Positions 23,679 to 33,384 of a stretch of 64,000 bases of DNA are shown here, in pieces. The stretch spans positions 1-64,000 of the forward strand of contig PKYB01000009.1 of NCBI GenBank assembly GCA_003133565.1, given 5' to 3'. How positions within the stretch are numbered: position 1 is the stretch's first letter; each line of letters begins with the position of its first letter. Made by a program: the position numbers and the translations under genes. The notes beneath the pieces are model-generated. The model did no database searches. It saw nothing but the letters and a program-made list of their open reading frames with translations, and was not told the DNA's origin. This stretch comes from Solirubrobacterales bacterium (lineage in GTDB: Bacteria; Actinomycetota; Thermoleophilia; Solirubrobacterales; Solirubrobacteraceae).

Positions 23679-25079
23679 GTGACGGCGATGACAACGCGAC
23701 GAATCGCAGCGGGAGCGCCGGCCGTCATGATCGACGTGCGCGACACTGCCCGTATGCGAATGCGGTACCACGTCACGACGTTCGGGTGCCAGATGAACGA
23801 GCACGACTCCGAACGGATGCGGGGCATGCTCGACGCCCTCGGCTATAGCGAGGCGGACTCGCGCGCCGAAGCGGACCTGATCCTCTTCAACACCTGCTCG
23901 ATCCGGGAATCGGCCGACAATCGCCTGATTGCCCATCTCGGCGAGGCCAAGCGGCTGAAGCGCGAGGATCCCTCGCGCATTGTCGGTGTTGGCGGCTGCT
24001 GGGCGCAGTCACTCAAGGACGAGGTGTTCGAGCGCTTCCCCTTCGTCGATGTGGCGTTCGGACCGGGACAAGTGAACCGGCTCGCCGACTTTCTCCTCAG
24101 CGACTCGCTCAGCGCGCAGGGCTACTTCGAGTTCGAATCCTTCACCGGCGATTTGCCGGCCAAGCGCGGCCGTGCGACCCAGGGATGGCTGCAAATCAGC
24201 GTCGGCTGCAACTGCCGCTGCGCCTATTGCATCGTCCCTTCGACACGCGGTCTCGAGGTCAGCCGTCCGCTGCAAGACCTCGTCGCCGAGGCCCGCGCGA
24301 TGGCCGACGACGGGGTCTGCGAGATCACCCTGCTCGGCCAGAACGTCAACTCCTACGGCCGTGACCTGCGCCCCACCCGGGCGAGCTTTGCCGAGCTGCT
24401 TGGCGAGCTCGACGCTATCGGAGGCCTCGAACGGATCCGCTACACGAGCCCACATCCCAAAGACATGCGTGAGGATGTGATCCGCGCGCACGCTGAGCTG
24501 CGCTCGCTGTGCGAGCACATCCACCTGCCGCTGCAGTCCGGATCCTCGCGTGTGCTGCGCGCGATGCGCCGCACATACGATCGCGAGCGCTACCTCGATC
24601 GTGTCGCGCTGATCCGCGAGTACGTCCCCGACGTCGCTCTCACCACCGACATCATCGTCGGTTTCCCCGGTGAGACCGAGGCCGATTTCGAGCAGACGCT
24701 CGAGGTGGTCGACGCCGTTGGCTACGACGGCGGGTTCACGTTTCTCTTCTCGCCGCGTCGCGGTACGGAGGCGGCCACCGTGACCACCGGCCTCGTGTCA
24801 CATGACGTCAAGCTCGCGCGGATGGAGCGGTTGCTCGAGCTCGTCCAGCGTCGAGCGCGCGAACGCGCCCAGCGCTTCGTCGGGCGCACCGTCGAGGTCC
24901 TGGTCGAAGGGGAGAGCCGCACCGATCCGGAGCGCCTACGCGGGCGAAGCCGCCACAACAAGGTCGTCAACTTCACTGGGCTTGCGAGGCCGGGAGAGTT
25001 CGCGATGGTCAGCGTGACGGCCGCGACGAGTCAGACGCTCGCGGGCGAGGAGCGGATTGCCGCACGCGCAGTGGGCTGA
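23679..25079 (+). CDS. miaB: tRNA-2-methylthio-N6-dimethylallyladenosine synthase
   Basis: Radical-SAM methylthiotransferase modifying A37 of tRNA. The UPF0004 domain has three cluster cysteines (TFGCQMNEHDS, FNTCSIRES, GGCWAQ). The radical-SAM domain has the CxxxCxxC signature in VGCNCRCAYCIVPSTRG, then ITLLGQNVNSYG, HLPLQSGSSRVLRAMRR, TDIIVGFPGETEADF, and a C-terminal TRAM domain (GRTVEVLVEGES...GRSRHNKVVNF). The first ~27 residues precede the family start; an internal ATG (MRMRYHVTT) is likely. It works with miaA, which begins about 850 bp downstream. Confidence 0.94.
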   Translation: MTAMTTRRIAAGAPAVMIDVRDTARMRMRYHVTTFGCQMNEHDSERMRGMLDALGYSEADSRAEADLILFNTCSIRESADNRLIAHLGEAKRLKREDPSRIVGVGGCWAQSLKDEVFERFPFVDVAFGPGQVNRLADFLLSDSLSAQGYFEFESFTGDLPAKRGRATQGWLQISVGCNCRCAYCIVPSTRGLEVSRPLQDLVAEARAMADDGVCEITLLGQNVNSYGRDLRPTRASFAELLGELDAIGGLERIRYTSPHPKDMREDVIRAHAELRSLCEHIHLPLQSGSSRVLRAMRRTYDRERYLDRVALIREYVPDVALTTDIIVGFPGETEADFEQTLEVVDAVGYDGGFTFLFSPRRGTEAATVTTGLVSHDVKLARMERLLELVQRRARERAQRFVGRTVEVLVEGESRTDPERLRGRSRHNKVVNFTGLARPGEFAMVSVTAATSQTLAGEERIAARAVG

Positions 25080-25926: not shown

Positions 25927-25932
25927 GAGCCG

Positions 25933-26823
25933 GTGAGCAGGGAGATCATTGCGCTGTTCGGCCCGACCGGTGTTGGCAAGACGACGATCGCGATCGCGCT
26001 GGCGGCACGTCTGCGTGCGCGCGGCGAGCAGCCGGTAGCGGTCTCGGCCGACGCCCTGCAGCTCTACGCCGGCATCGAGCTGCTGACCGCCGCGCCAACC
26101 GCCGCCGAGCAAGCCGTGCTCGAACACCGCCTCGTCTCCTGCGTGGCGCTCGATCAGCGCGTCAGCGTCGCCGAATACGCCCGCCTTGCGCACGTCGAGA
26201 TCGACGACCTGCTCGAAGCGGGCGCGACGCCGATCGTCGTTGGCGGCACCGGCCTCTATCTCCGCGCCGCGCTCAGCGATCTCGATCTGCGACCGCCACC
26301 GCCGCTGGCTGTGCGCGAGCGCTGGATGGGTGAGCTCGAGGCACGCGGACCGGAAGCGCTGCACGGCGTACTGAGCGAGCGCGCGCCCTGGGCTGCGGAG
26401 CAGATCGCCCCGGGTGACCGGCACCGCATCGTCCGCGCGCTCGAACTCGAGGAAATCGGGGCCCTCACGCCGCCACCCGAGCGCTCACAGCTTTGGAGCG
26501 ACGTCGTACGCCATCCGACGCGCCTGATCGGGCTGGCGATGGAGCGAAAGGCGCTCTACGCACGAATCGACGCGCGCGTCGATCAGATCGTTGCCGCTGG
26601 TGCACGCGAGCAGGTCGCCGCCGCTGAGCAGGCCGGTGTCTCGGCGACGGCGCGCAAAGCGCTCGGGTTCCAAGAGCTGATCGACGGCGACATAGAGGCG
26701 CTGAAGCGCCACACGCGCAACTACGCGCGACGCCAGCTGACCTGGCTTCGCAAGTTGCCCAACGTCGAGCTGATCGATGTGACCGGCCGGTCGCCCGACG
26801 ACGTCGCCGCGGCGCTGCAATGA
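25933..26823 (+). CDS. miaA: tRNA dimethylallyltransferase
   Basis: Transfers dimethylallyl to A37 of tRNA, producing the substrate of MiaB. P-loop ALFGPTGVGKTTIAIAL, then SADALQLYAGIELLTAAPT (DxxQ-type region), VGGTGLYLRAALSDL, and C-terminal ALGFQELIDGD with RNYARRQLTWLRKLPNVELID. About 296 aa from the GTG 25933, chosen because GATACT lies 6 nt upstream; the ATG 25909 is an alternative and would overlap the SDR start. Confidence 0.94.
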   Translation: MSREIIALFGPTGVGKTTIAIALAARLRARGEQPVAVSADALQLYAGIELLTAAPTAAEQAVLEHRLVSCVALDQRVSVAEYARLAHVEIDDLLEAGATPIVVGGTGLYLRAALSDLDLRPPPPLAVRERWMGELEARGPEALHGVLSERAPWAAEQIAPGDRHRIVRALELEEIGALTPPPERSQLWSDVVRHPTRLIGLAMERKALYARIDARVDQIVAAGAREQVAAAEQAGVSATARKALGFQELIDGDIEALKRHTRNYARRQLTWLRKLPNVELIDVTGRSPDDVAAALQ

Positions 26824-26857: not shown

Positions 26858-27709
26858 GTGCAGTTCGAGAAGTGGCAGGCGCTCGGCAACGACTACGTGA
26901 TCGTCGAAGCATCGGCGCTGCCATGGGAGCTCAGCCCGGCGCGCATCCGGCGAATCTGCGATCCCCACCTCGGGGTGGGGGCGGACGGAATCCTGGTGCT
27001 CGAACGGAGCGAAGATCCCGCCTACGTCGCGAACTTGCGCGTCTTCAACCCTGACGGCTCGGAGTCGGAGCTGTCCGGCAACGGCTCGCGAGAGGCGATC
27101 ATGTACCTGCGCGAGCGTGGCTTCACCGACCGCGACGAGTTCGCGATCCTCACCGCGGCGGGCCCGGTGCGACCGCGGATTACCGGCCCGCACACCTGCG
27201 CGGTCGACATCGGTCGAGCGAGCACCGTGTCAAAGGACTTCCCCTCGGGACCGCCCGATGGCGTCGCTGAGCTCGAGGCCGACGGGCGGCTCTGGCGCTT
27301 TCAGCATGTTTCGATCGGCAATCCGCAGTGCGCCATCGCCTGCGCGGAGCTCGACCAACTCGAGCAGCTCGACCTCGGCGCGATTGGGCCCGCGATCGAG
27401 CACCACCCGCTCTTTCCCAACCGCACCAACGTGTCGTGGTACCACGCGCTCGCGCCGGAGGAGATCCGGGTCCGCATCTTCGAGCGTGGCGTCGGCGAAA
27501 CGCTCTCCTCGGGCACCGGGGCGAGCGGCGCTGCGGTCGCCCATCATCTGGCCGGCGGCGCGAGCCGGATCACCGTGCGGCTCGACGGTGGCCAGCTCGA
27601 AGTGGTCGTAGGAGGAGACTTGAACGTGACCCTGAGCGGCTGGGCGCTGCCGGTATATGCGGGAGTGCTCGCCGACGACTTCGTCAAGGAACTACATGAG
27701 ACACAGTGA
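26858..27709 (+). CDS. dapF: Diaminopimelate epimerase homologue with Ser at both catalytic Cys positions
   Basis: 283 aa, DapF fold throughout: KWQALGNDYVIVE, CDPHLGVGADGILVLE, FNPDGSESELSGNG, IGNPQCAIA, HHPLFPNRTNVSW, IRVFERGVGETLSSGTGASGAAVA. In characterised DapF the two racemising cysteines lie in the motifs E-x-C-GNG and xx-C-GtG; here the codons are TCC and TCG, so both are serine. Other blocks are conserved, including the substrate-binding Asn and Arg-Gly regions. Normal DapF activity is therefore doubtful. A GTG start follows a GGAGG RBS. It overlaps dapL by 14 nt. Confidence 0.85.
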   Translation: MQFEKWQALGNDYVIVEASALPWELSPARIRRICDPHLGVGADGILVLERSEDPAYVANLRVFNPDGSESELSGNGSREAIMYLRERGFTDRDEFAILTAAGPVRPRITGPHTCAVDIGRASTVSKDFPSGPPDGVAELEADGRLWRFQHVSIGNPQCAIACAELDQLEQLDLGAIGPAIEHHPLFPNRTNVSWYHALAPEEIRVRIFERGVGETLSSGTGASGAAVAHHLAGGASRITVRLDGGQLEVVVGGDLNVTLSGWALPVYAGVLADDFVKELHETQ

Positions 27710-28862
27710 CCGCCTCGAGCGCATTCCGCCCTACCTCTTCGCACAGCTGGAGCGGAAGATCGCGGACAAGCGCGCAGCGGGGGTCGATGTGATCACGCTC
27801 GCGATCGGCGACCCCGATACGCCCACCTACCCGCCGATCGTCGATACGGCCCAGCGGGCGCTCGCCAACCCGACGACGCACACCTACCCCTCAAACCGTG
27901 GTCGCGAGGAGTTCCGCGAAGCGGTATCGACCTTCTACGCGCGGCGCTTTTCGGTCGAGATCGATCCCGACGGCGAGGTGATGCCGGCGATCGGCGCCAA
28001 GGAATGCATCTTCAATCTCAACCTCGCGTTCCTCGATCCTGGTGATGTCGCGCTGGCCGCTGATCCGGGCTACCCCGTGTACACGGGCGGACCGTTGCTC
28101 GTTGGCGGCGAGGCCGTCTTGATGCCGCTCGTGCCGGAGCTCGGCTTCATCCCTGACCTTGACGCGATAGACGCCAAGACGCGCGCGCGGGCGCGCGTCC
28201 TCTTCGTCAACTATCCGAACAACCCCACCGGCGCCGTCGTGCCAGAGGGGTTCTTCGAGCGCCTCGTCGAGTTCGGCGCCGCCAACGACATCCTGATCGT
28301 CCACGACAACGCCTATTCCGAGACCACGTTCGATGGCTACGTCGCGCCGTCGTTCCTCGCGACGCCTGGAGCCAAGGACGTCGGCGTCGAGGTGTTTTCG
28401 CTCTCCAAGGGCTACAACATGACGGGCTGGCGCTGCGCGACGATCGTTGGCAATCGCGAGGCGATCGCCTCGTATTGGCGCCTGAAGACAAACGTCGACT
28501 CCGGCCTTTTCGAGGCCGTACAGCTAGCCGGTGCGGCCGCTCTCGCGCCCAATATCGACCATTACGTCCGCGCGATGAACGGGATCTACCAGCGGCGTCG
28601 CGATCTCGTCTGCGCGGCACTGGCAAAGATCGGCGTCAACGTGACACCACCGCGGGGAACGGTCTACATCTGGGCGCCGGTACCAGCGGGCTTTGAAAGC
28701 GCCGCGGCATACTGCGAGCACGTGCTCGAGGAAGTGGCAGTCGTGATTTCGCCCGGCGGCGCCTACGGACCAAACGGCGAGGGCTTCTTCCGGATCTCGC
28801 TGACAACCCCCGATGATCGTCTGATGACGGCAATCGAGCGGCTCGGGAAGCTGGCACGGTGA
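27696..28862 (+). CDS. dapL: LL-diaminopimelate aminotransferase
   Basis: PLP fold-type I enzyme of about 388 aa that makes LL-DAP directly from tetrahydrodipicolinate, bypassing the DapCDE steps. RIPPYLFAQLERKI at the N-terminus, LAIGDPDTPTYP, SNRGREEFREAV, NYPNNPTGAV, DNAYSETTFDGY, and PLP-lysine motif SLSKGYNMTGWR. The track ORF is over-extended; the ATG 27696 follows AAGGAACTAC and overlaps the dapF end. Related class I aminotransferases look similar, but the dap context supports DapL. Confidence 0.85.
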   Translation: MRHSDRLERIPPYLFAQLERKIADKRAAGVDVITLAIGDPDTPTYPPIVDTAQRALANPTTHTYPSNRGREEFREAVSTFYARRFSVEIDPDGEVMPAIGAKECIFNLNLAFLDPGDVALAADPGYPVYTGGPLLVGGEAVLMPLVPELGFIPDLDAIDAKTRARARVLFVNYPNNPTGAVVPEGFFERLVEFGAANDILIVHDNAYSETTFDGYVAPSFLATPGAKDVGVEVFSLSKGYNMTGWRCATIVGNREAIASYWRLKTNVDSGLFEAVQLAGAAALAPNIDHYVRAMNGIYQRRRDLVCAALAKIGVNVTPPRGTVYIWAPVPAGFESAAAYCEHVLEEVAVVISPGGAYGPNGEGFFRISLTTPDDRLMTAIERLGKLAR

Positions 28863-30130
28863 GAACCGCGCGCGCGAGCCAGCGCGCCGTCACCTTCGCC
28901 GCGCAGTCGCGGCCAGAGGATCTCGCCGAGCTCGAGGAACTGCTGCGCACCGCCGGGGTGGCTGTGGTCGGGACGCTCGTGCAGCAGCGCGAGCACCCGC
29001 ATCCCAAGAGCTACCTCGGACCGGGCAAGCTCGCCGAGCTCAAGGCGCTGGCCCTGGCACTCGACGCGAACATCGTGGCCTGCGACGACGAGCTCACGCC
29101 GCGCCAGGAGCGCACTCTCGAGGATGAGCTCGGGATCGCCGTGATCGATCGCACGGCCGTGATCCTCGACATCTTCGCGCGCCACGCCGGCAGCGCCGAG
29201 GGCAAGCTCCAGGTGGAGCTCGCACAGCTCGAATACAACCTCTCACGGATGCGGGGACTGTGGACACACCTCGAACGCCTCGGTGGTGGCGTCGGCACAC
29301 GCGGACCGGGCGAAGCCCAGATCGAGACCGATCGCCGTCTCGCGCGCAATCGCATCTCGACGCTCCGTCGGCGACTCCGCGCCGTGGCGGGCACCCGCCA
29401 GATCATGCGCAACGAGCGCGAGCGCACGCAGTTACCGGCGATCGCGCTGGCCGGCTACACGAACGCGGGCAAGTCCTCACTGCTCGCAGCGCTGACGGGT
29501 GCGGAGGTCCCCGTTGCCGACCGCCTGTTCCACACACTCGACCCCACGACCCGTCTGCTCGAGGTCAACGGCCGTAGCTACCTTCTGACTGACACCGTCG
29601 GCTTCATCCGCAAACTGCCCCACCAGCTCGTTGACGCCTTTGGCGCAACCCTCGAGGAGACGCGGCGCGCCACCCTGATCATCCACGTCGTCGATGCCCA
29701 CGCGCCGGAGGACCAGATCGAGGCGATGATGGCCGCGGTAGAGGATGTCCTCGAGGAGATCGGCGCGGGCGAGGTGCCGCGCCTGCTGGCGCTCAACAAG
29801 GCGGACCTGCTTGACGAAGAAATGCGCGCCCGAGCCTGGAGCGGGCGGCGCGACGCACTGCTCGTCTCCGCCGTCAGCGGCGAGGGGCTCGACGAGCTGC
29901 GCGAGCGGGTTGACGCGCAGTTCGTGCGCTCACTCGAGCCGGTCGAGCTGCTCGTTCCCTACAGCGACGGTGGCCAACTCGCCGAACTCCACACGCTCGC
30001 CGGCGAACTGCAGCGCGAGGACACCGCCGAGGGCGTCCGCGTGAGCGCACTGCTACCCGCGGCAAGCGCCGCCCGTTTCGCGCGCTACCGCACGACGCCA
30101 GTGAGCGCCAACGGCAAGCCGAAGCCATGA
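28859..30130 (+). CDS. hflX: GTPase HflX
   Basis: 423 aa ribosome-associated GTPase that splits stalled ribosomes. N-terminal HflX domain (PHPKSYLGPGKLAELK, ACDDELTPRQERTLED, DRTAVILDIFARHA), coiled region with GGGVGTRGPGEAQIETDRR, then the G domain: G1 AGYTNAGKSSLL near residue 200, G3 DTVGFI, G4 NKAD. GTG start overlapping the dapL stop; its own stop overlaps dut. Confidence 0.94.
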   Translation: MRTARASQRAVTFAAQSRPEDLAELEELLRTAGVAVVGTLVQQREHPHPKSYLGPGKLAELKALALALDANIVACDDELTPRQERTLEDELGIAVIDRTAVILDIFARHAGSAEGKLQVELAQLEYNLSRMRGLWTHLERLGGGVGTRGPGEAQIETDRRLARNRISTLRRRLRAVAGTRQIMRNERERTQLPAIALAGYTNAGKSSLLAALTGAEVPVADRLFHTLDPTTRLLEVNGRSYLLTDTVGFIRKLPHQLVDAFGATLEETRRATLIIHVVDAHAPEDQIEAMMAAVEDVLEEIGAGEVPRLLALNKADLLDEEMRARAWSGRRDALLVSAVSGEGLDELRERVDAQFVRSLEPVELLVPYSDGGQLAELHTLAGELQREDTAEGVRVSALLPAASAARFARYRTTPVSANGKPKP

Positions 30131-30581: not shown

Positions 30582-31301
30582 TCAGCGCCCGGCGGCATGC
30601 AGGGCGCTAGCGTGCGCGGCGTCCTCGAGCGCATCGTCGAGCACAGCGAGCGTCTCCGGCTCGACTGCCAGCGCGCGCGCGATCAGCCAGTCGCACAGCC
30701 AGGCGTTTTTCGGCAGCAGCGGGCCGTGGATGTAGGTGCCAAGGACGTTGTCGCGCCGCGCGCCCTCAAAGCCGCTGTGCCCGTCGTTGCCGTGACCGCT
30801 CAGCACGCGCCCAAGCGGCGGCTGGTCTGGCCCGAGGCGCGTGCGCCCGGCGTGATTCTCGAAGCCGACAAGCACGCCCTCCTCGAGCGTGATCGCGATG
30901 TTGCCGATCAAGCGCGGTCCATCCTCGCGCACGGTCCGTACGTCAAGCAGTCCAACTCCCTCGACGTGCTCCTCGCCGATCTCATAGGAGTGGCCGAGCA
31001 GCTGGTAGCCACCGCAGACGCCGAGCACGATCGCGCCGCGCGCCGCCGCCGCACGCAGGGCGGGCGCCTTGCGGGCCACGAGATCGGCGGCACAAAGGCG
31101 CTGGTCGGAGTCCTGTCCGCCGCCGATGTAGTAGATGTCGTGCTCGTCACGGAGCGGCGCCTCGAGCGTGCTGGGGCTCAGGCGAAAGTCGATCCCACGC
31201 CACCTACAGCGCTGTTCGAGCATCAGCAGGTTGCCGCGGTCGGCGTAGATGTTCATCAGTTCCGGGTAGAGCGCACAGACCCGGACCACCTGCGCGCTCA
31301 T
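30582..31301 (-). CDS. gatD: Lipid II isoglutaminyl synthase, glutaminase subunit
   Basis: 239 aa class I glutamine amidotransferase of the CobB/CobQ-like type. YPELMNIYADRGNLLMLEQRC start, nucleophile Cys in VLGVCGGYQLLG near residue 95, VGFENHAGRT, and catalytic His in GTYIHGPLLPKN. GatD releases ammonia for MurT, which amidates the D-Glu of lipid II. Third gene of a minus-strand operon; overlaps the methyltransferase by 4 nt. Confidence 0.9.
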   Translation of the reverse strand: MSAQVVRVCALYPELMNIYADRGNLLMLEQRCRWRGIDFRLSPSTLEAPLRDEHDIYYIGGGQDSDQRLCAADLVARKAPALRAAAARGAIVLGVCGGYQLLGHSYEIGEEHVEGVGLLDVRTVREDGPRLIGNIAITLEEGVLVGFENHAGRTRLGPDQPPLGRVLSGHGNDGHSGFEGARRDNVLGTYIHGPLLPKNAWLCDWLIARALAVEPETLAVLDDALEDAAHASALHAAGR

Positions 31302-32008
31302 GGCGCCACCGCGCTCAGCAGGAGCACCGCGCTACCGACATGCTCGGTGGTGGGGGGGATGGAGCTCACGCCGTGGAGTGCGAATCCGCTGGGGACCGTT
31401 TCGGCGAGCACCGTGGCGGCGTCCAGCTGCTGGAGCGTGACGACGTCAAGCGAGGCGTATTCAACAGCCTCGCCTTCCGCGCGACGGCGCCGTTCGATCA
31501 CGACGGTGGCGGTCGTTTGCCGAAGCGCCGTCGGCGTGCTCGTGTAGCGCACGCCGCCGCGTTCGAGCACATCGGCCTCGAGCTCGACCGAGAACGGCTG
31601 GACGCCCTCGCCGAGCAGCGCGAGCGCAAGTACGCCGCCAGGGACCAGGGCTGCCCGCGCACACCGGAAAAACGCTCCGCGATCGTCCAGCAGCTGCACG
31701 GTCTGCATCGGCACGATACAAAGCGAAACCCGCTGCTCCAGCGCGAAATCGCAAGCGTCGGCACAGAGCACGTCGATCGGCAGATCCCGCGCGCGCCGTT
31801 TGAGCTCATGGGCGAGCGCCTCGTCGCGTTCGAGCGCGATGACCCGCTGTCCCCGGGTCGCCAGGTCGAGCGCGACGCGGCCTGTCCCGGCGCCCACCTC
31901 GAGGATCGGCCCCGCCGCATGCGCGAACGCGAGCTCACGCCAGAGCGGCAGGTCGGCGGCGTAGGTGCCGCACTCGAGGTCGTGCCAGATCACGGCGTCT
32001 TCGCTCAC
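31298..32008 (-). CDS. SAM-dependent methyltransferase embedded in the murT-gatD operon
   Basis: 236 aa. N-terminal YAADLPLWRELAFAHAAGPILEVGAGTGRVALDLA with motif I GAGTGR, motif II IALERDE, ADACDFAL, and ALVPGGVLALALLGEG; a class I methyltransferase of the MdcE/Methyltransf_25 style. The GTG start overlaps the murT stop by 4 nt and its stop overlaps gatD by 4 nt, so it is made together with the amidotransferase pair. The acceptor is unknown; a peptidoglycan-precursor role is only suggested by the operon. Confidence 0.85.
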   Translation of the reverse strand: MSEDAVIWHDLECGTYAADLPLWRELAFAHAAGPILEVGAGTGRVALDLATRGQRVIALERDEALAHELKRRARDLPIDVLCADACDFALEQRVSLCIVPMQTVQLLDDRGAFFRCARAALVPGGVLALALLGEGVQPFSVELEADVLERGGVRYTSTPTALRQTTATVVIERRRRAEGEAVEYASLDVVTLQQLDAATVLAETVPSGFALHGVSSIPPTTEHVGSAVLLLSAVAP

Positions 32009-33384
32009 GTCCGGTCCCAGAAGTTCGTAGCCTGCCCGCGGCGCCCGAGCACCTCGCGGAGCTCGAGCATCGCCGTATATGTGGGCAGCGCGTAGAGTTT
32101 GCCGTCTTCCGGCGCCGCCGCCACGGCGGCATCGAGTGCCCGCGCGAGGTTTGGTTCGAGCGCGATCCGCGTCGTCGGGACGCCGGCGTATTTCAGCCGC
32201 AGCGCCAGCTCCGGTGCGCGCGTGCCAGCGCAGGTGACGTGGCGCACGCGCGGGGCGAACTCTTCGAAGTCGGCGTCCCAGATCCAGGAGACGTCGCGGC
32301 CGTCGGCGATCTGGTCGTTGAGCACGCCGAGCAGGTCGTGCTCGCCCGGTTCGAGCGCGAGCGTGCGCAGAACCTCATTCGCGCCCGCCGGGTTCTTGAT
32401 CAGGAGGATCTGCAGCTCGCGCTTGCCGATTTGCACAAGCTCGGCCCGTCCGAACATCGCCGGAGCCGCACCCAGACCGTCGACGATGGTCGCGAGCGGG
32501 ATCTCGAGCGCCGTCGCCAGCGCCGCCGCCGCGAGCGCGTTGTAGACGTTGTAAAGGCCCGGGAGCGCCAGCGTGACCGTGCCGCTACCCGCCGGTGTAC
32601 GGAGCTCGAAGCGCGCCGAGCGCGCGCCCTCGAGCACCACGTTGTGCGCGCTCACGCCGGGCTGCGGGCGCCGCAGGCCGCAGTTCGAGCACTCATACAC
32701 GCCGAGGTGCCCGACGTAGACGTGCGCGTAGCGGTAGGCGCCGCCACAGCGCCGGCATTGCGTCGAGTCCGCGGCGTGGGCGAGTCCAGTCGAGCGCGCG
32801 ACGTTCGGATCTTCGATGCCGAAGTAGAGCGGCTCCTGCGCACCCACGCCGAGATAGGCGACGAGCGGATCGTCTGCGCCGAGGACAAGGCGGGCCGAGG
32901 ATCCGGCGACGACGCCCGCCCAGCGCTCGCCGATCGTCTCGAGCTCGCCGTAGCGGTCAAGTTGGTCGCGAAACAGATTGCTCAGCACGATCACGCGAGG
33001 GTCAAGCTCGGCCGCGACCGGCGCAAGCCAGAACTCGTCGACCTCGAACACCCCGAGCTCGCCCGACAGCGCCCCAGCGCGGCCGCGCGCAGCCAAAAGC
33101 GCAGATGCGATGCCGCCGGCCATGTTCGCGCCGGCGAAGTTGTCGACCGTCGTGATCCCCGCACGCGCAAGGATCGACCCCGCGAGCGCGGCGGTCGTCG
33201 TCTTGCCGTTGGTCGCGGAGATCACGACGCTGCCGCGACGAAGGCCGGCGGCCAGCCGCGCGATCGCGTGCTGGTCGAGTTGGAGCAGCACGGATCCGGG
33301 CACGCTGGTCGCGCCCCGTCCGGCGAGCCTCGACGCGACAGCCGCGGAGCGTGCGACGGCCGCCTTCGCGCTGAATACGCTCAC
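32005..33384 (-). CDS. murT: Lipid II isoglutaminyl synthase, Mur-ligase-like subunit
   Basis: 459 aa. Mur-ligase ATP site SATNGKTTTAALAG near residue 57, VFEVDEFWL, NLFRDQLDRYGE, then a four-cysteine zinc ribbon (CRRCGG...CSNCG), the LPGLYNVYNALAAA block, and the C-terminal DUF1727 domain (KNPAGANEVLR, WIWDADFE). MurT activates the alpha-carboxylate of D-Glu on lipid II. GTG start with TACGCT (complement at 33391-33396) 6 nt upstream, suggesting a leaderless operon. Confidence 0.93.
   Translation of the reverse strand: MSVFSAKAAVARSAAVASRLAGRGATSVPGSVLLQLDQHAIARLAAGLRRGSVVISATNGKTTTAALAGSILARAGITTVDNFAGANMAGGIASALLAARGRAGALSGELGVFEVDEFWLAPVAAELDPRVIVLSNLFRDQLDRYGELETIGERWAGVVAGSSARLVLGADDPLVAYLGVGAQEPLYFGIEDPNVARSTGLAHAADSTQCRRCGGAYRYAHVYVGHLGVYECSNCGLRRPQPGVSAHNVVLEGARSARFELRTPAGSGTVTLALPGLYNVYNALAAAALATALEIPLATIVDGLGAAPAMFGRAELVQIGKRELQILLIKNPAGANEVLRTLALEPGEHDLLGVLNDQIADGRDVSWIWDADFEEFAPRVRHVTCAGTRAPELALRLKYAGVPTTRIALEPNLARALDAAVAAAPEDGKLYALPTYTAMLELREVLGRRGQATNFWDRT

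Follow-up and report, generated by a model that had tools for sequence, protein, structure and literature searches.

The 64,000-nucleotide stretch of Solirubrobacterales DNA analysed here (the window), which belongs to a metagenome-assembled genome of 2.68 Mb and 86% completeness, encodes one homologue of the diaminopimelate (DAP) epimerase DapF (EC 5.1.1.7), and in this protein both catalytic cysteines are replaced by serine. The replacement is common to the order Solirubrobacterales and is accompanied by an intact DAP pocket, and the protein is probably the organism's DAP epimerase, with two serine hydroxyls in place of the thiol/thiolate pair. The gene and the positions concerned are the following.

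26858..27709, + strand: dapF orthologue with a Ser/Ser active site (TIGR00652, two PF01678 matches, AlphaFold2 model, Foldseek match)
27074..27076, + strand: codon TCC of Ser73, at the position of catalytic Cys73 (alignment with E. coli DapF; motif ELSGNG)
27509..27511, + strand: codon TCG of Ser218, at the position of catalytic Cys217 (alignment with E. coli DapF; motif TLSSGTG)
27326..27328, + strand: Gln157 (GNPQ), where other DapFs have His159 (GNPH); Gln in 102/102 Solirubrobacterales

The open reading frame encodes a protein of 283 amino acids and starts with a GTG codon preceded by GGAGG. The protein scores 187.6 bits against TIGR00652, the NCBIfam equivalog model for DapF (cut-off 114.65), and matches both halves of PF01678, which is the sole Pfam family found at E ≤ 0.001. 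There is no match to PF05544, the proline racemase superfamily, nor to PF02567 (PhzF) at E ≤ 0.001. The AlphaFold2 model has a mean predicted local distance difference test score (pLDDT) of 97.6, and its top structural match in the PDB by Foldseek is Anabaena DapF with ligand (9mro). Helices comprising residues 74–86 and 219–231 of the model immediately follow Ser73 and Ser218, as they follow the cysteines in DapF. The first-pass annotation of the window had claimed that both catalytic cysteines are serine while the fold and the substrate residues are intact; the alignment with E. coli DapF bears out the first part, and the family matches, the modelled fold and the retention of every checked DAP-contact residue bear out the second. 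That observation was correct, and understated.

The protein shares with DapF the fold, the length, the two-domain repeat, the checked DAP contacts, a locus linked to dapL and the status of sole copy in a DAP-dependent pathway, but differs from it in the serines at both catalytic cysteine positions and in the Gln that replaces His159. It is a DapF by descent, fold, pocket and locus that does not possess the cysteine pair, which is one of the features that define DapF. The preferred description, judged from the sequence, is a Ser/Ser variant orthologous to DapF, most likely a DAP epimerase, and not a standard member of the family.

A survey of 299 genomes of the class yielded 102 Solirubrobacterales genomes with a DapF match, and each of these DapFs was read. 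Serine occupies the first site in 102/102 and both sites in all 101 full-length proteins, the one further DapF ending before the second site. The first-site serine is encoded by TCG (52), TCC (41), TCA (4), AGC (3) and TCT (2), and the second-site serine by TCG (43), TCC (29), AGC (17), TCA (5), TCT (5) and AGT (2), so that all six serine codons are in use across the two sites. Serine has been kept despite codon moves between TCN and AGY, which indicates that selection acts on serine itself. The occurrence of Ser/Ser in 101/101 proteins with mixed codons rules out sequencing error, frameshift, pseudogene or chance. Ser/Ser is not a private mutation of this genome, and the earlier question of whether it is a clade feature is answered clearly in the affirmative, the feature even reaching beyond Solirubrobacterales.

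Residues N11, N64, D66, G74, N75, G76, R78, N155, N191, E209, R210, G219 and T220 do not vary in the Solirubrobacterales set, and these positions include contacts to both the reacting and the distal ends of DAP in Anabaena DapF (PMC12039745). The invariance of the DAP-contact residues, together with serine at both sites, suggests that the DAP pocket has been kept and the acid/base pair alone exchanged.

The pathway in which the protein would act still needs meso-DAP. LysA, a meso-DAP decarboxylase by family, and MurE carrying DNPR, the motif that marks enzymes adding DAP, are both found over their cut-offs in 12/12 Solirubrobacterales genomes. The peptidoglycan of Conexibacter woesei is of type A1γ with meso-DAP, which was called diagnostic for all Solirubrobacterales (PMC3035278), and the cell wall of Solirubrobacter likewise contains meso-DAP (PMC10722151). 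A wall built with LL-DAP, for which no DAP epimerase would be needed, was one of the outcomes offered in the first-pass annotation, and a dead-looking epimerase adjoining dapL, the gene for the maker of LL-DAP, would be in line with it. However, the published meso-DAP walls and the presence of LysA, which needs meso-DAP, in all 12 genomes make this explanation extremely improbable.

Each of the 20 near-complete genomes examined, several of them closed, has a single DapF, and in the closed Solirubrobacterales genome G198 this DapF (L008) is of the Ser/Ser type. Two of the 102 genomes (G202 and G240) gave double matches, in each case to pieces of one gene, and the check for a second DapF elsewhere in the genome, an idea also present in the earlier annotation, found none in Solirubrobacterales genomes. 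No meso-DAP dehydrogenase was found over the family cut-off in 12 Solirubrobacterales genomes, several of them closed. The proline racemase family PF05544 has no member in 13 of the 15 genomes searched, which argues against a proline racemase as the substitute epimerase. Alanine racemase (Alr) is present in at least one copy in all 15 of these genomes and as a single copy in 13, while two alanine racemases occur in G198 and G111.

A less likely reading is that meso-DAP comes from another, unrecognised enzyme, such as an alanine racemase of broad specificity or a racemase dependent on pyridoxal phosphate (PLP), and that the Ser/Ser DapF is slow, vestigial or a regulatory DAP binder. The Cys-to-Ser mutants of related enzymes are almost inactive (PMC8225329; PMC11602996), the Alr found in every genome searched could be promiscuous or be joined by a further PLP enzyme, and E. 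coli DapF activates RppH independently of catalysis (PMC4227774). Against this stand the lack of a DAP dehydrogenase and, in most genomes, of PF05544 and of a second Alr, so that the families searched contain no candidate for the other epimerase that the first-pass annotation had envisaged. Moreover, a vestigial protein is not expected to keep both serines and all DAP contacts throughout an order, nor is vestigial Ser/Ser expected to recur in several lineages, and a non-catalytic role of the RppH type leaves the conserved active site unexplained. A different role for the Ser/Ser DapF is disfavoured, since all checked DAP-contact residues and the linkage to dapL are kept.

The recurrence of Ser/Ser emerged from the DapFs of Thermoleophilia and from a wider survey of Actinomycetota, the latter with approximately one genome per family. 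The families of Thermoleophilia other than Solirubrobacterales have mostly Cys/Cys DapFs. Two of them, f7 (8/8 read) and f11 (4/4), have Ser/Ser DapFs, and one member of f9 has Ser/Cys. The 50 DapFs from other Actinomycetota families comprise 30 Cys/Cys, 11 Ser/Cys, 5 Cys/Ser and 4 Ser/Ser proteins. A gene tree calculated without both catalytic positions requires at least five changes of the Ser/Ser label, four of them forced by well-supported branches, these counts being approximate as they come from a quick gene tree. This distribution points to several origins of Ser/Ser within Actinomycetota.

Ser/Ser DapFs L137 and L145 (f46/f49, outside Thermoleophilia) are each the sole copy in the genome and lie in a miaB-miaA-dapF-dapL locus; the in-frame TGA reported for both falls outside the DapF reading frame. 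The recurrence of Ser/Ser as the sole, syntenic DapF in f7, f11 and f46/f49 counts in favor of an epimerase with a serine pair. Ser/Ser proteins L126 (genome G362) and L151 (G312) are extra copies located elsewhere, while the Cys/Cys copy of the same genome keeps the miaB-miaA-dapF-dapL locus. These two paralogues also have an altered GTG motif (SSATGAC and ASAAGAS) and DA in place of DG, and they may act on a different substrate or serve a different function. Ser/Ser as a trait of Solirubrobacterales only is ruled out by f7, f11, f46/f49 and these paralogues; a pattern scan of the phylum had returned Ser/Ser in Solirubrobacterales alone, its limited sensitivity having missed f7, f11 and f46/f49.

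Mixed pairs also occur naturally in other families, and they too count in favor of the serine-pair epimerase. Ser/Cys DapFs (L129, L153, L155, L157, L158, L160, L162, L166, L167, L169 and L170, also L063) are mostly the sole DapF found in the genome, and each of the Cys/Ser DapFs (L128, L139, L147, L148 and L150) is the sole one found.

The surroundings of the active site are remodelled in Solirubrobacterales, which differ from Cys/Cys DapFs at Gln157, Ser193, Glu/Gln79, Ala80, Leu72 and Leu60. The replacement of His159 by Gln is specific to Solirubrobacterales among the lineages read; the Ser/Ser DapFs of f7 and f11 keep the histidine, and so does every Cys/Cys DapF read from Thermoleophilia. 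Such remodelling could be taken to mean that proton transfer in the Ser/Ser epimerase falls to a different side chain or to a bound water molecule, with the serines merely holding the site. This is improbable, as a search for one compensating residue shared by every Ser/Ser lineage found none (f7 and f11 keep His159), Cys-type DapF itself has no basic residue near the catalytic sulfurs (PMC12039745), and the serines themselves are invariant in Solirubrobacterales.

Serine chemistry is the best supported of the four outcomes that the first-pass annotation had offered, because the Ser/Ser protein is the sole DapF, the serines are invariant, the pocket is intact, the pathway depends on DAP and the published wall contains meso-DAP. 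In the proposed mechanism LL-DAP would be bound in the ordinary DapF pocket and interconverted with meso-DAP, while the hydroxyls of Ser73 and Ser218, each located at the N-terminus of one of the active-site helices, would act as acid and base, probably aided by the remodelled surroundings. The cysteines of DapF, placed at helix N-termini, gain stabilization from the helix dipole and from backbone NH groups (PMC12039745). Both the catalytic activity of the Ser/Ser DapF and the acid/base function of its serines are proposed here from comparison of sequences and models. The broader hypothesis, of a cofactor-independent epimerase with a Ser/Ser acid/base pair that evolved several times and is the order's sole source of meso-DAP, is favored by a narrow balance.

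Several observations weigh against a serine-based epimerase. Replacement of either cysteine of the PddB racemase by serine (C101S/C233S) leaves less than 0.1% activity (PMC8225329), the same holds for the Cys-to-Ser change in M. tuberculosis DapF, as cited in that work (PMC8225329), and the activity of HisR C67S/C209S is greatly reduced (PMC11602996). Crystallographic work makes use of such Cys-to-Ser mutants as a slowed form of the enzyme (PMC12039745). No compensating base was found, and His159, a possible helper, is Gln in Solirubrobacterales. Finally, the natural precedents for a catalytic serine retain one cysteine or catalyze another reaction. The near-dead state of the engineered relatives makes the natural Ser/Ser DapF a real puzzle.

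These precedents come from the related fold of the proline racemase superfamily, in which the 4-hydroxyproline 2-epimerase Avi_0518 has a Ser/Cys pair and the trans-3-hydroxy-L-proline (t3Hyp) dehydratase Avi_7022 a Ser/Thr pair (PMC4113996). Both have a catalytic serine at the position of the first cysteine, where the window protein also has serine, but they belong to another family with other substrates, and the epimerase Avi_0518 retains the cysteine at the second site. The engineered H. influenzae DapF C73S (PDB code 2q9h) and C217S (2q9j), PddB C101S/C233S and HisR C67S/C209S contain the same side-chain change at one site. However, these changes are single, artificial and nearly inactivating where measured, whereas in the window DapF the change is double, natural, fixed and carried by the only copy. 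PhzF has a DapF-like fold without the cysteine pair (Foldseek matches at ~14% identity), but acts on another substrate and does not have the set of DAP contacts found in DapF. Catalysis by PhzF uses Glu45. The open-access literature yielded no published Ser/Ser epimerase or racemase and no natural serine variant of DapF, a negative that is weak evidence.

DapF is a model for the deprotonation of an amino-acid α-carbon (pKa ~29) by a weak thiolate base, and its cysteine pair is held to be essential and is targeted by inhibitors. The presence of Ser/Ser in organisms that need meso-DAP means that either an alcohol pair carries out this chemistry or a missing DAP epimerase awaits discovery. If active, the Ser/Ser DapF would be expected to escape thiol-directed inhibitors and to lack a disulfide switch of the C. 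glutamicum type (PMC5296763), and annotation rules built on the cysteine pair would need revision for Actinomycetota.

In C. glutamicum DapF this redox switch is a reversible disulfide between the catalytic cysteines (PMC5296763). Met60 and Met72 (E. coli numbering), located near the active site, are conserved in Cys/Cys DapFs and largely lost in Ser/Ser DapFs, and the methionine content is 0.9–1.5% in Ser/Ser DapF vs 2.7% in Thermoleophilia Cys/Cys DapF. The methionine content of MiaA and DapL shows a smaller or no consistent difference between the two groups. In view of the disulfide in C. glutamicum DapF it is conceivable, as a speculation, that resistance to oxidation was gained through Ser/Ser.

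The genes surrounding dapF in the window are the following.

23679..25079, + strand: miaB (TIGR01574), conserved upstream neighbour by synteny
25928..26823 (start approximate), + strand: miaA (TIGR00174 barely above cut-off), conserved upstream neighbour by synteny
27696..28862, + strand: dapL, LL-DAP aminotransferase (NF006756 over cut-off; TIGR03540 at 500 bits, short of the 593-bit cut-off; synteny)
28859..30130, + strand: hflX (TIGR03156), conserved downstream neighbour by synteny

The ATG of dapL at 27696 lies inside the 3' end of dapF, giving an overlap of 14 bases. The order miaB-miaA-dapF-dapL-(hflX) is common to Ser/Ser DapFs and to the Cys/Cys DapFs of neighbouring families, which indicates that the Ser/Ser DapF is the orthologue at the ancestral place.

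Further downstream, at 30582-33384 on the − strand, the window contains a murT-gatD pair (a MurT_C domain and a CobB/CobQ-like amidotransferase), which is expected to amidate the D-Glu of peptidoglycan. A gene with a methyltransferase domain (31298-32008) sits between murT and gatD, with overlaps of 4 bases among the three genes.
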